From: Candidatus Jordarchaeales archaeon
GTDB taxonomy: Archaea > Asgardarchaeota > Jordiarchaeia > Jordiarchaeales > Freyrarchaeaceae
DNA: 64,000 nt
Assembly (NCBI GenBank): GCA_038889235.1
Contig: JAWAHN010000002.1
Coordinates: 168,288-232,287, forward strand
Direction of reading: 5' to 3'
The notes beneath the pieces were generated by a model. The model did not search any database and was not told where the DNA came from. It saw only the letters and a program-made list of their open reading frames with translations. This document shows, one piece after another, positions 4,285-42,081 of the stretch. The position numbers and the translations under genes are program-made. Position 1 is the first letter of the stretch. Each line of letters opens with the position of its first letter.

Positions 4285-4488
4285 CATTACCTCTCATTTT
4301 AAAGAAAAATCACCATTTTTACTCAATTGTTTACTATTTTTCAGGTTTGTTGTTCAAGATTTTACGGTCTTATTCCAGTAAATTTAAAAATAATTCCGTA
4401 ATTTATTATATTAGTCCTCCTCTAGTTGTTGTGATGCGAGATTTCGTCATCGAAATATTTTCGCTTTAAAAATTGTAAGGTGTTGCAC

Positions 4489-5019
4489 TTGAGCCAGGCA
4501 AAATACATTTTTAAAATAGTTGTCGTGGGGGATGGTGCGGTAGGAAAAACCAGTCTAATTAAGCGTTATACTGAGGAGTCCTTTCAATCGGATTACATAA
4601 TGACCATTGGAGCAAATTTTGCTGTTAAGAACGTTGAAGTTGATGGAATCTTAATAAAGCTTCAAATATGGGACTTGGCTGGGCAGCCTCACTTTAAGGA
4701 GGTGCGCTCCTCATTCTATAAAGGAGCTGTAGGAGTCATGTATGTCTTTGACGTTTGCCGCCCAGAAAGTTGTGTTAACCTGTTAAACTGGAAAGAGGAA
4801 CTCGTAAAGGTGTGCGGAGAGGTTCCAGGCGTCCTCCTTGCTAACAAAATAGATTTAGAAGAGCATCGGAAAGTCACTGTTGATATGGGAAAAGAGCTCG
4901 CCGCACGTCTTGGCGGGATCCCCTACTTTGAAACAAGCGCCCTAACAGGTGCTGGAGTGAGGGAAGCCTTCCAAAAAATTGCGGAACTCGCATACGAAGC
5001 GGTGACGAAGAAGAAATGA
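4489..5019 (+). CDS. Rab/Ras-like small GTPase
   Basis: A 176-residue single-domain GTPase of eukaryote-like Rab/Ras type. G1 is GDGAVGKT (residues 14-21), the G2 Thr sits in MTIGANF, G3 is WDLAGQ, G4 is NKID and G5 is ETSAL. The G3 motif has Leu-Ala where eukaryotic Rabs have Thr-Ala, but keeps the Gln used for hydrolysis. The tail ends in lysines without cysteines, so there is no prenylation site. The TTG start at 4489 was chosen because AAGGTG lies six bases upstream; an in-frame GTG nine bases earlier overlaps that motif. The substrate is GTP; its regulators may be the longin and roadblock proteins in this window (inference). Confidence 0.93.
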   Translation: MSQAKYIFKIVVVGDGAVGKTSLIKRYTEESFQSDYIMTIGANFAVKNVEVDGILIKLQIWDLAGQPHFKEVRSSFYKGAVGVMYVFDVCRPESCVNLLNWKEELVKVCGEVPGVLLANKIDLEEHRKVTVDMGKELAARLGGIPYFETSALTGAGVREAFQKIAELAYEAVTKKK

Positions 5020-31234: not shown

Positions 31235-33181
31235 TTACCTGAATAGTTCTATTACACTCATTTTTACCGTGGAGAAATCTTTCTTGTTTATATATCCCTT
31301 CTCTAGAAGCAAACTTAGCCCATCGTATATCTTTGGCTCCAAATCTTTCTGTTTCAACAAATTCACTTTATCCATAAAACTTCTAGCCTCTTCTAGAAGC
31401 TTAAGTTCGTCTACATGTTGCTCAAACCTTTTCTTCAAAAAGCTAGTAAAAGTTTTGTTAGCCACGTCATCCACCTTAATTTTCCCGTTACTGGTCTTCT
31501 CAAGGAATCCAACTGGCGGTATAAGTATCAGCTGAGTTTTTTCGTCACTTCTCAGTTCAGCAAGGTAAGCTGTCAAAAAGAAAATGAACGGCTCCCTCAC
31601 ATCGGGCCCTCTAACCATAGATCCCGTCAATGCTGCTATGTCCATTTCATGCGACTTCATATGTTCTTCTAGATAGTTATAGATGTCTTTCAACCTGTTA
31701 CGGTACTTCTCCTTAAGTTTATCTATCAGAGAAAGCTGCTTCTCCATTTCCTCCTTCAAATCACCAATCTTTTTCTCCATGCTGGCAATCACTTTTTCTG
31801 CATGTTGTTCAACTATTTGTCGCTTTTTATGTGCGTCGTTAATCGCTGAACGAACAACTTTCTCCACACGTTTCAGCTTTTCACTCACATCTTTCACATC
31901 GTCCCTTAGCTTTTCCAGCAATCCAGCGACCTCCTCCAATGCAAGCAATTTATCCTCCCTTTTGCCTCCATCGCCTTTGTCAAGCATCGTGGAAGCATAG
32001 TTAACCAAATTCATCATAGCGTTCGAAAGCGACACTATGTCCTCCCTAATCTCTTCAACTTCCTTCCATGCAGCGTTCCAAGCCTGCTCCTCTATCTCTG
32101 TTATCTTCTGCTTCTTATCCTCCTCAACCTTTACGCGCTCCTCACCAATTTTTCGCCTTAATTCGTCAATTCGCTCTAAATATTCGTCTCTCACCTTGGC
32201 TCTCTCATCTTCTAGTTTTTTGATATGTAACTCTGCTATTCCAACAACCTTCTCGCTCAACTTCTTCAACTTCTCAGCATTCTCTTTGATTGCGCCAAGC
32301 ACGTTCAGGAATTTTTCCTTCACTTCCATAATTTCAGTCTCACTGAAAACCGTCCTCAAAATGACTGCATCCTTAATCTTAGAAACTTGTGCGTTAGCAA
32401 GGAACCTAGCCAACTCTTGAGCGTTCTCATACCCGATAAGACCCGGTATTACAAAGGTTTCGTAAGCCACTTTTTCCCTTAAAATTGCAGCTATTCTGTC
32501 AATTGACTTCACAGGATCCTGCGCCAAGCTAGTCTCTTCATCTTCCTTAAGCTCCGGAGGCGAGAAACACTTTATAACAACGGGATCCTTAAAGAGTCCA
32601 TCGACTATTATGCATTCACCAGCATTTGTAGGAACAACCCAAAAAGGCCAAAGCACTTTAACGACAGAATCAACGTTCACCTTCTTCTTAATCAGACTCA
32701 CACTCTGACTTCTCATCTTCTCCAGCATGAGGAAAGCCGCGGCGAGAGACGCCTCCTCGCTCCTCTCACCTTTATCTAAGACTAGGAATGGTGCGCAAAA
32801 AACTTCTTTAACCATTAAACAATAATTGTACTCGTTAACTAGAAGTTCCAGTGACCTGGCAAAGTATTCATCAAGCCTTCCTTTCTCCCTGTAAATTTTA
32901 AAGAAAAGCGAGACTGCTTGTGACAAGAAACTCCTCGCAGCTTCTACGTCATCATCCAAATCAACAGCAACAGCGAATATGTAATCTTCAGCCACGTCGT
33001 ACACGAAAACACCATCTTTCGTCGCCATACTCTGTATTCCGCCATGACCTATTTCGCTTGCAAAAGAAAATATTGCTGCGAGAAACCCTGAGAGAAGTGC
33101 CTCGTCCACTTTACTTCCGCCATAATTTCTATGAAACACAGGGCTACCAGTTCTCTGGAATATGTAAAATTCTTTAATCAT
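31235..33181 (-). CDS. Longin-like domain fused to a long coiled coil
   Basis: A 648-residue protein I cannot assign to a named family. Residues 1-100 form an alpha/beta domain ([39 protein letters not shown]) that resembles longin/roadblock-type folds and closely matches the pattern of the 168-residue protein at 40.3 kb. A second mixed region follows to about 280. A highly charged coiled coil spans about 290-510. A globular C-terminal part (515-648) includes [23 protein letters not shown] in two pieces. No membrane segment is present. Architecture suggests a cytosolic tether or scaffold for a small GTPase; this is inference. Confidence 0.6.
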
Positions 33182-33413: not shown

Positions 33414-33469
33414 ACACTTATATCCACCAGCCAAACGCAGAAGTTCCAACAGTCAGTGGGGGAAGTAAA

Positions 33470-33745
33470 ATGTCAGACGAAAACAGCGTGTACATCGGAA
33501 ACAAGCCCGTAATGAACTACGTGTTGGCATGCATAACTTTGTTCCACAACGGGAAAAACGAGGTTGTCATAAAAGCTAGAGGGAGATCAATTAGTAGAGC
33601 AGTGGACGTAGCGGAAATTGTGAGAAACAGATTTATGACAAACGTCTACCCCAAAGAAATCAGAATAGGCACTGAAACACTGAGCACAGAGTCCGGCAAT
33701 CCAGTCAACGTTTCAACAATTGAAATAGTGCTTGCCAAGAAGTAA
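33470..33745 (+). CDS. alba: Alba DNA/RNA-binding chromatin protein
   Basis: A 91-residue Alba protein, usual length. It has [19 protein letters not shown], with the Lys used for acetylation-controlled DNA binding expected in the N-terminal IGNKPV loop, then [22 protein letters not shown] in two pieces. It coats and bridges DNA and also binds RNA. The ATG has GGGGGAAG upstream; a much longer frame on the same strand has no start support. Confidence 0.96.
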
Positions 33746-40341: not shown

Positions 40342-40848
40342 ATGATATTAGATGTTTATGTGATGAACAAAAATGGCATATGTTTGTGCAGGCGCAGTTA
40401 TGGCAAAATATCTGAAAGTGAGGAGAACGTGGACGATCTACTTCTAACAGGTTTTATGAGCGCGTTGCTTTCGTTCACCGAACAAATGGGGGAGGCGAGA
40501 CTAGAAGTTGTAAAAACAAACAAGTACCTTTTAGCCTGCAACACAAGTGACCCAATCGCAGTTATAGTTATTGCCTCTGGTGAAAGAGAGGAAGTGGTGA
40601 AAGAAGTTGCCAAGGAAATTTTAAAGCGCTTCAAAGGTCTTTATGCCCACTTACTGAATGATTGGGATGGTAATATCGAGTATTTCCAAGCATTCGGCGA
40701 AGAAATAGACTATGTGGTGAAAAAGATGAAAAAAACAAACATAAGAGAGCTCATTAAAACCAACGAAATGGATGCAAAAGAAATAGCTGAGATCATAATA
40801 TCCGAAATCAACCAACAACTCCAAAAAATAATGGCAAAAAACGTGTGA
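40342..40848 (+). CDS. Longin-like domain protein
   Basis: A 168-residue protein similar in its first 110 residues to the N-terminus of the 648-residue coiled-coil protein: VYVMNKNGICLCRRSYG, then LLTGFMSALLSFTEQMG, then IAVIVIASGEREEV. The strand-strand-helix-strand layout is that of longin/roadblock-type domains. The tail is a charged helix. I use the ATG preceded by GGTG eight bases upstream rather than a longer frame. A TATA-like AATATATTTTTAA lies near 40266-40278. It is probably a GTPase-associated protein (inference). Confidence 0.6.
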   Translation: MILDVYVMNKNGICLCRRSYGKISESEENVDDLLLTGFMSALLSFTEQMGEARLEVVKTNKYLLACNTSDPIAVIVIASGEREEVVKEVAKEILKRFKGLYAHLLNDWDGNIEYFQAFGEEIDYVVKKMKKTNIRELIKTNEMDAKEIAEIIISEINQQLQKIMAKNV

Positions 40849-41217: not shown

Positions 41218-41688
41218 TTACTCGCCTTGTTTAACTATTACGAAGGTACACTTGTCATTTTTGTCGCTTCTTAGGCTTTCTGTGTAAACTTTGACATCGC
41301 CAAGCGCTTTACGGGCTGCAGCTTCTATCAAGCCGTGCGTGTAAGTGCAATAGAACTTGCTGGTAATATCGAAATTTAGCATTTCAAACGGGCACGCGGT
41401 AAATATAATCCTAGCTTTTCCGTCACTACTCTCGAATGAAACAAATTTCTCTCCTATCACTGGGGCTACCACATCCTTTGCTAAAAGTTCAACAAATTTC
41501 TCAAGGCTCCAATTCTTCACACCGTACTTTTCCCTCATCCTTGCTTCAGCACGCTCGCCCACGGATTCCCCAACCAACCTGAAAACAGTCCTAACGGTCT
41601 CCTTCCCTGCTATGGCGTCGATCTTGTTCATCAGGTTCTTGAACACGCGAGTGATGAAGCCGTGGAGTCTCACCAAATCTTCAGACAC
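41218..41688 (-). CDS. V4R-like small-molecule-binding domain protein
   Basis: A 156-residue protein whose C-terminal half fits the V4R/bacteriochlorophyll-reductase-like fold: FTACPFEMLN, then FYCTYTHGLIEAAARKALG, then a final KCTFVIV strand. The two Cys groups and the C-x-F end are the usual V4R ligands. The N-terminal helices include VRTVFRLVGESVGERAEAR. V4R domains bind hydrophobic or metal ligands and are found in regulators and in trafficking-complex subunits of the TRAPP/Bet3 type. The GTG start has GGTGGTGAT four bases upstream, overlapping the end of the roadblock gene. Confidence 0.65.
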   Translation of the reverse strand: MSEDLVRLHGFITRVFKNLMNKIDAIAGKETVRTVFRLVGESVGERAEARMREKYGVKNWSLEKFVELLAKDVVAPVIGEKFVSFESSDGKARIIFTACPFEMLNFDITSKFYCTYTHGLIEAAARKALGDVKVYTESLRSDKNDKCTFVIVKQGE

Positions 41689-41703
41689 ACTAATCACCAC
41701 CAA

Positions 41704-42081
41704 CTAGTAAAGCAGCTTTTTAATTTCCTCAATAGCTTTCTCCATCTCCCAAAAAACAAGTCCTAGGTTAGCATCACTTCTAACTAGGACTGTTAAGAGG
41801 TGCTCTTCACCCACGCTCATGACCACAGTTTGCCCCCCGCTTCCAGTTATTAAAACGCGCTGTAACATCCCTTGGCCAAGCTCAGCTACAGTTCTTTTAC
41901 CAATACCTAGCGTGGCCACAGCCATAGCGGCGACAAGTCGTGGGTCAGCCACTTCTGAAGGCAAATCGGAAGCCACAAGCATTCCCTCACTAGAAACCAC
42001 AGCACTACCTAGAACGTCAGCCACCCGCCGCTCTAATTCCTTCAAAACATTAACAAGCCTTTTTCTAACATCCTCAGCCAT
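41704..42081 (-). CDS. Roadblock/LC7 domain protein
   Basis: A 125-residue single-domain roadblock protein. Family features are LEERRV-type first helix (LKELERRVADVLGSAVVSSEGMLVAS in parts), the strand ALPSE-like ASDLPSEVADPRLVAAMAVA, and the C-terminal VVMSVGEEHLLTVLVRSDANLGLVFWEM in parts. In bacteria and archaea such proteins (MglB type) act as GTPase-activating partners of small GTPases. GGAGGG precedes the ATG. It is the first gene of a pair with the V4R protein and lies behind the tRNA gene. Confidence 0.88.
   Translation of the reverse strand: MAEDVRKRLVNVLKELERRVADVLGSAVVSSEGMLVASDLPSEVADPRLVAAMAVATLGIGKRTVAELGQGMLQRVLITGSGGQTVVMSVGEEHLLTVLVRSDANLGLVFWEMEKAIEEIKKLLY

Follow-up and report, generated by a model that had tools for sequence, protein, structure and literature searches.

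The gene analysed here encodes the longin-headed form of a previously unnamed, Asgard-wide family in which two conserved half-domains flank a long predicted helical hairpin, and we propose with moderate confidence that the protein works as a scaffold or tether recruited or switched by a small GTPase at a membrane. The window, that is, the whole 64,000-nucleotide stretch of DNA that was analysed, corresponds to C2:168288-232287 of a 2.14 Mb genome (G000), and its features are collected in Table 1. Asgard archaea are the group nearest to eukaryotes; Rab-like GTPases, longins and ESCRT parts abound in their genomes, and few targets of these proteins are known. The surprise is not the longin itself but the core, unnamed so far, to which longin, Rab or ESCRT-II-like modules are joined depending on the Asgard lineage. 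Present in over half of the 160 Asgard-phylum genomes examined, with a longin in some lineages, a Rab-like GTPase in another and an ESCRT-II-like tail in a third, the core is a tangible candidate target of those GTPases, and each piece is small enough to be expressed, so that pre-eukaryotic GTPase-controlled scaffolds become a directly testable question.

Table 1 Features of the window (positions in the window; residues of the 648-aa protein where given)
Feature	Positions	Strand	Basis
Whole gene, longin head and hairpin-scaffold core, 648 aa	31235..33181	-	ORF; full-length relatives exist
Longin head, residues 1-125, b1-b2-a1-b3-b4-b5-a2-a3	32807..33181	-	AF2 secondary structure; VIA-align to synbindin 2zmv
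Core N half-domain, residues 126-280	32342..32806	-	Family conservation; AF2 alpha/beta
WPFW signature, residues 178-181, within long strand	32639..32650	-	Invariant W178, P179, W181 (22 aligned relatives)
Coiled coil, predicted as a helical hairpin broken at 405-407, residues 281-520	31622..32341	-	AF2, two jobs; loose alignment of SMC arm segments
Core C half-domain, residues 521-648, FR at end	31238..31621	-	Family conservation; AF2
Alba gene, divergent neighbour (context)	33443..33745	+	Pfam Alba E 3.6e-23
Lone longin protein, 168 aa, homologous to head	40342..40848	+	Pfam Sybindin 25.3 bits vs cut-off 25
Roadblock/LC7 protein, 125 aa (context; outside longin-core gene)	41704..42081	-	Pfam Robl_LC7 E 8.6e-11
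Ras-superfamily GTPase, 179 aa (context; possible partner)	4480..5019	+	PF00071 E 3.8e-50 at G000:C2:172800-173276 = window 4513-4989

Predicted longin fold of the N-terminal head

The preliminary description of this DNA had given the positions 31235-33181 without a strand and had guessed at a longin-like head; the ORF of 648 aa lies exactly there, on the minus strand. In the AlphaFold model of the protein (12-sequence alignment, mean pLDDT 81.9, pTM 0.60), residues 1-125 follow the element order b-b-a-b-b-b-a-a, as in longins. Structural comparison by VIA-align was led by single longins, namely synbindin 2zmv (Z 15.5, 116 residues, rmsd 2.2 A), VAMP7 (Z 14.5, 113 residues, 2.5 A) and Sec22b (Z 13.9, 116 residues, 2.8 A), with 2j3t_D of the bet3-trs33-bet5-trs23 complex at Z 13.5 and human Fuzzy-Inturned at Z 12.0, and the matches found by Foldseek include adaptor sigma/mu chains, MON1A-CCZ1 (9lol, E 1.2e-4) and Mon1-Ccz1-Bulli chains. 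Judged from the model, residues 1-125 are a genuine trafficking-type longin domain; topology and fold comparison agree with the original guess, and the structural search that had been suggested as a check put longins at the top, not an unrelated fold.

In Pfam the head itself reached Fuz_longin_1 at E 0.09, under that model's cut-off, and its homology to known longins is indirect, through the lone longin of the same window, which lies just above the Sybindin cut-off. The likeness of these two proteins had been claimed beforehand from two quoted peptides, both of which are found in the respective proteins. Rated by E-values, it is real homology: the pair match by BLASTP at E 1e-8 (59 residues, 31% identity), and a profile built from the heads of 17 relatives (A5) recovered the lone longin at E 1.1e-23 in a whole-genome search, in which 13 places of the window's genome matched at E<=0.01. 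The window protein was matched by 87 of 99 relatives at E<=0.001, mostly, among the matches listed, to the head.

A conserved core around a predicted hairpin

Residues 125-648 form a single conserved module made of an N half-domain, a predicted helical hairpin of ~240 residues and a C half-domain. Two AlphaFold jobs agree on an alpha/beta half, a helix (281-404), a turn, a second helix (408-520) and another alpha/beta half, and the core folded alone gave five models with mean pLDDT of 74 to 82. The N half carries the signature PF...LWPFW...IVDG; in the alignment of 22 relatives, P131, W178, P179 and W181 are invariant and D194 nearly so, and G621 and R648 are nearly invariant in the C half. 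Conservation of WPFW is looser across 34 diverse cores than in the 22 relatives.

The models suggest that the core helices likely form a two-helix hairpin. SMC arm segments cover both arms at Z about 10-11, and as this alignment is loose (rmsd 8.6-10.5 A), it makes the hairpin likely rather than proven. Deletion midpoints proved too weak a guide to the tip to be relied on, with 15 of 35 two-part matches falling within 15 positions of the predicted place (median 274.5 versus about 282). In the predicted structure, the N and C halves probably join into one split globular head, from which a coiled coil of ~120 residues per arm would project by about 18 nm according to helix arithmetic. The head on a 220-residue coiled coil that had been described earlier thus keeps its longin and its long helices, but the helices amount to about 240 residues, slightly more than stated, and the conserved half-domains at 126-280 and 521-648 had been missed.

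Relations of the halves to each other and to the head were also considered. Internal duplication of the two halves, with an hhalign probability of 5.8%, is not claimed, and comparison of the halves with the longin head by hhalign, which is a profile comparison only, returned probabilities of 0.3% and 0.7%. The N half has a longin-like order of strands and helices by eye, but since hhalign gives this no support, we do not claim a second longin.

Foldseek gave no match for the core at E 0.001 (the top one being SH3BP5, E 2.3e-3), and the fold searches with the core alone were filled by coiled coils. Against PDB sequences, the window protein had three matches, at E 0.28 and worse, and the core profile had 206 at E<=1, of which the 60 listed all lie in the helical part, with apolipoproteins and designed bundles first. 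No Pfam or NCBIfam model exceeded its cut-off on the core, and the matches above cut-off belong to attached domains. By sequence comparison, residues 125-648 are a previously unnamed family of its own that is Asgard-wide. Anti-phage defence was considered as well and rejected, PADLOC being nil for four of the five proteins scanned, including the window protein; the fifth, a headless paralogue, had weak matches (E 3e-5 and worse) with the best stretch in the helical part.

Distribution and phylogeny of the core family

At E<=0.001, a search with a profile built from 22 cores gave matches in 150 of 392 genomes, 139 of which belong to the phylum. The profile built from 34 diverse cores (A6) had matches at E<=1e-8 in 102 of 160 chosen Asgard-phylum genomes (51/80 and 51/80), a sample that comprised G000-G098 and a hand-picked part of G101-G225 and omitted many genomes of families f3 and f4 with matches to the 22-core profile. 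Among the matches listed, most members lack a longin, their open frames being about 500-590 aa long, and the window's genome itself encodes another copy, which is headless and 508 aa in length (C2:351388-352860). At a distance of about 2.4 kb from this paralogue is a gene resembling ftsZ by eye (L155, G000:C2:345000-359000).

Outside the phylum, two-half or full core matches occur in 7 of the 37 genomes searched of the archaeal genus g81. Altogether 10 of the 61 non-phylum genomes searched matched the core, the three beyond the g81 seven by coiled coil only; the 22-core profile matched 11 non-phylum genomes, and of the two among them with positions listed, G246 has a real member and G262 the coiled coil only. 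Several of the g81 homologues (L100, L113-L118, L147, L148) have N termini of low complexity by eye. Since a distant copy occurs in a non-Asgard genus, any tie between the core and Asgard trafficking genes is not exclusive.

The longin-core form was found in 18 genomes, in two of them cut by contig ends, belonging to the Jordarchaea families f1 and f2, to f10, to f13 (Borrarchaeum/Sifarchaeum) and to one f27 genome, whose copy, nested in f2, could be a contaminant. Of the 105 core ORFs, 74 were placed in a tree, made by the 'quick' method and carrying a long-branch warning, in which the 16 uncut longin forms and four headless rows make one 20-row subtree that spans several Asgard families (SH-aLRT 82, not starred). 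The longin label needs three changes on this tree, so that a single gain with losses is possible rather than demonstrated. None of the labels used applies to 44 of the 74 rows, and 12 more are EAP30 or N-terminal-ribbon forms, C-terminal zinc ribbons being outside the labels. The tree omitted fragments or short ORFs (L010, L024, L175, L176, L186, L142), ten f3 rows and 15 of the 23 EAP30 forms, and rows were dropped for L139 (a match by coiled coil only), the three non-phylum genomes with coiled coil only and a coil-type ORF in L158. L142 is a relative in which the hairpin is naturally short (L142:970-2136, 389 aa).

Modules attached to the core and neighbouring genes in relatives

Different modules are attached to the core in different lineages. 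First, in both Borrarchaeum genomes (G041 and G028) a Ras/Rab-family GTPase stands at the N terminus of the core (Pfam Ras E 2.4e-55 and 3.7e-56), with the motifs GDGAVGKT, DTGGQ and NKLD visible; the other two f13 genomes searched (G021, G035) have no Ras-core ORF, and the fusion comprises two genomes of one genus. In addition, four f13 proteins have an N-terminal extension of CPKC or CPRC type. Second, in family f4, which we tentatively take to be Thorarchaeia, one paralogue frequently has a zinc ribbon at its C terminus, recognised by Pfam for L092 and by CxxC pairs seen by eye in L094, L102 and L109, not in L095. Another f4 paralogue, mostly of 746-856 aa where uncut, has an EAP30/ESCRT-II-like C-terminal region. 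Six of these tails were tested and gave E 1.2e-9, 1e-8, 3.3e-6, 9.7e-5, 7.2e-4 and none, that is, five below 1e-3 and three above the Pfam cut-off. Winged helices of the EAP30/Vps36 family are thus present in f4 relatives, and the window protein has no EAP30 match in Pfam. The core of the EAP30 forms shows two partial matches, a shorter coiled coil and a long branch in the tree.

The neighbourhood of the f4 core-EAP30 gene also includes a small GTPase. A longin-Arf GTPase gene lies beside it in 18 of 24 loci; five of the others end at a contig edge (L175, L176, L181, L182, L183), and L161 is truly without it. Divergent to the core-EAP30 gene is an operon-like pair that encodes a winged-helix-like protein and the longin-Arf fusion (280-308 aa). 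Two of the fusions were tested for the Arf part, giving E 4.8e-19 and 8.1e-19, and the longin part was recognised by the A5 profile at E 7e-11, 2e-8 and 1e-7 in three, the remaining genes being assigned by BLAST to one of these. The pair lies opposite the core-EAP30 gene in L152, L153, L165 and 15 further f4 loci, often together with a helical protein of ~200 aa, and in 20 of the 24 loci the core-EAP30 gene is followed by a protein of ~260 aa that by eye looks membrane-like. The core gene of f26 has an Arf/Rag-like GTPase gene at a distance of about 2.6 kb. No clear link to a function emerged from the other core loci examined, two of which, in f3, are followed by a GNAT acetyltransferase-like gene (one tested).

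Gene context in the window and its genome

An Alba homologue adjoins the longin-core gene in six of eight Jordarchaea loci and, among the loci compared, is a neighbour in Jordarchaea only. On the other side, radical-SAM-like and prephenate-dehydratase-like genes (names by eye) stand in seven of the eight loci, the eighth being cut there. These neighbours (Alba and two genes resembling radical-SAM enzymes by eye) suggest no link to trafficking, and no GTPase gene adjoins the longin-core gene in the window. Between 40342 and 42081, the lone longin, a MetOD1-like protein (41218-41703) and the Roadblock/LC7 protein are found near one another.

Of the 13 PF00071 matches in the window's genome, seven reach E<=2e-41, including the one in the window; as 13 of 14 control genomes also match this model, the weaker of the 13 may be other GTPases. 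Two ORFs with longin and PF00071 matches together (G000:C1:870220-870939 and G000:C2:290144-290905) are likely longin-GTPase fusions. One EAP30 protein exceeds the cut-off (E 1.7e-17), and among the controls two of 14 match and none does so above cut-off. An odd fusion of 587 aa in the region of G000:C2:44465-44941 (L196:274-2034, minus) joins a Ras-family GTPase to what is by eye an M20-type peptidase/deacylase.

Proposed role and alternative explanations

Longins are domains that dimerise to form platforms for GTPase binding or exchange. In our best explanation, the N-terminal module would couple the scaffold to small-GTPase signalling, by a longin here and by the Rab-like GTPase itself in Borrarchaeum. 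Either by itself or in a pair with a second longin protein, the longin head would contact a small GTPase, which would recruit or switch the hairpin scaffold at a membrane, and the hairpin would then bridge or space its partners. Candidate partners are the lone longin (40342-40848) and one of the GTPases encoded in the genome. Binding of a small GTPase by the scaffold is plausible by analogy, because relatives have core-Ras fusions and the longin-Arf neighbourhood. Against the proposed role count the lack of an attached longin or GTPase in most members, the restriction of the Ras fusion to one genus, the two-part core match and long branch of the EAP30 forms, the low specificity of PF00071, the distant non-Asgard copy and, in the window, the lack of an adjoining GTPase gene. 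The 'GTPase-effector architecture' seen in the preliminary description holds insofar as fusions and gene order in relatives tie the core to small GTPases, but descent from MON1/CCZ1 has no support. MON1/CCZ1 chains were indeed found by Foldseek, yet synbindin, VAMP7 and Sec22b lead the VIA-align list, and profile comparison gives no extra longin.

In the main rival explanation, the protein would be one subunit of a TRAPP- or MON1-CCZ1-like complex with GTPase exchange (or GAP) activity, in which a longin pair would act on the GTPase and the core would be the body of the enzyme rather than a tether. TRAPP longins are among the best fold matches of the head, MON1A/CCZ1 chains are among its Foldseek matches, and the first Foldseek match of the core is a coiled-coil Rab11 GEF, SH3BP5, which may reflect coil shape only. 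However, SNARE, adaptor and SRX longins match the head too, and longin folds serve in those proteins without exchange activity; moreover, no further longin was found in the core by profile comparison, and fusion of the core to its own GTPase fits an effector or a switch equally well. We regard this exchange role as unlikely, while still a serious contender. A cytosolic signalling scaffold of the Ragulator/MglB kind, acting in nutrient sensing or polarity without membrane tethering, is a good deal less probable: the roadblock gene close to the lone longin and the many longin and Ras-superfamily matches in the genome would suit it, but the EAP30 fusions point to membrane work of the ESCRT type. 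An SMC-like protein structuring the nucleoid or chromosome, which loose SMC-arm alignment over both arms and the divergent Alba gene might suggest, is very improbable, as the Walker A pattern is absent from the window protein and present in only four of 105 core ORFs (two with a fused Ras domain), no ATPase family exceeds the Pfam cut-off, and the Alba neighbour is confined to Jordarchaea among the loci compared.

Beyond the single protein, Asgard archaea could possess a whole family dedicated to this task, in which GTPases switch hairpin scaffolds and the longin, Rab and ESCRT-II modules can replace one another on a common core. Such a family would be the archaeal equivalent of the tethers and scaffolds of eukaryotes and older than endomembranes. 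We offer this broader idea only tentatively, and consider it doubtful as it stands.

Comparison with known systems

The protein can be compared with several known systems. With SMC and Rad50 arms it shares, in the predicted structure, two long helices flanked by N and C halves, in a loose alignment of the arms. Identity with an SMC ATPase, the case that had been named as an alternative from the outset, was rejected, since the window protein, unlike SMC/Rad50, has neither a P-loop pattern nor a match to a Pfam ATPase family above cut-off. SH3BP5 superimposes poorly on the core (TM-scores 0.18/0.40, rmsd 26, E 2.3e-3), and in the models this match is most likely a generic coiled-coil likeness. 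The tri-longin RabGEFs are MON1/CCZ1, FUZ/Inturned and HPS1/HPS4. Like these, the window protein has an N-terminal longin followed by more domains; unlike them, it has one longin detectable by profile comparison and about 240 residues of long helices.

The statement that no archaeal counterpart has been described needs to be divided. Asgard roadblock, longin and TRAPPC3 proteins, and Asgard GTPases fused to longin or roadblock domains, appear in the available part of PMC10933270, so that Asgard longins and longin/GTPase fusions have been described. As for the core, no description was found in the open-licence PMC literature, including the available parts of PMC10933270, PMC10936438, PMC10307638 (whose main text, as far as available, does not contain 'longin') and PMC6141808, and an account may exist elsewhere or in a supplement. 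The available part of PMC10936438 presents ESCRT-linked multidomain proteins of Asgard archaea with Vps28-C, an adaptin appendage and a longin. The proteins studied here are similar in that Asgard proteins join a longin with trafficking modules; they differ in that longin, Ras and EAP30 sit on one core in different lineages, a core not recognisable in the text of that paper's section on Asgard diversification.

The closest likeness is to synbindin/TRAPPC4, VAMP7 and Sec22b in the fold of residues 1-121; unlike these, the window protein carries its longin on a long conserved scaffold, with no SNARE motif or TRAPP domain. With the Asgard longin-GTPase fusions reported in the available part of PMC10933270 it has a common Asgard setting, but its longin is fused to a scaffold and not to a GTPase.
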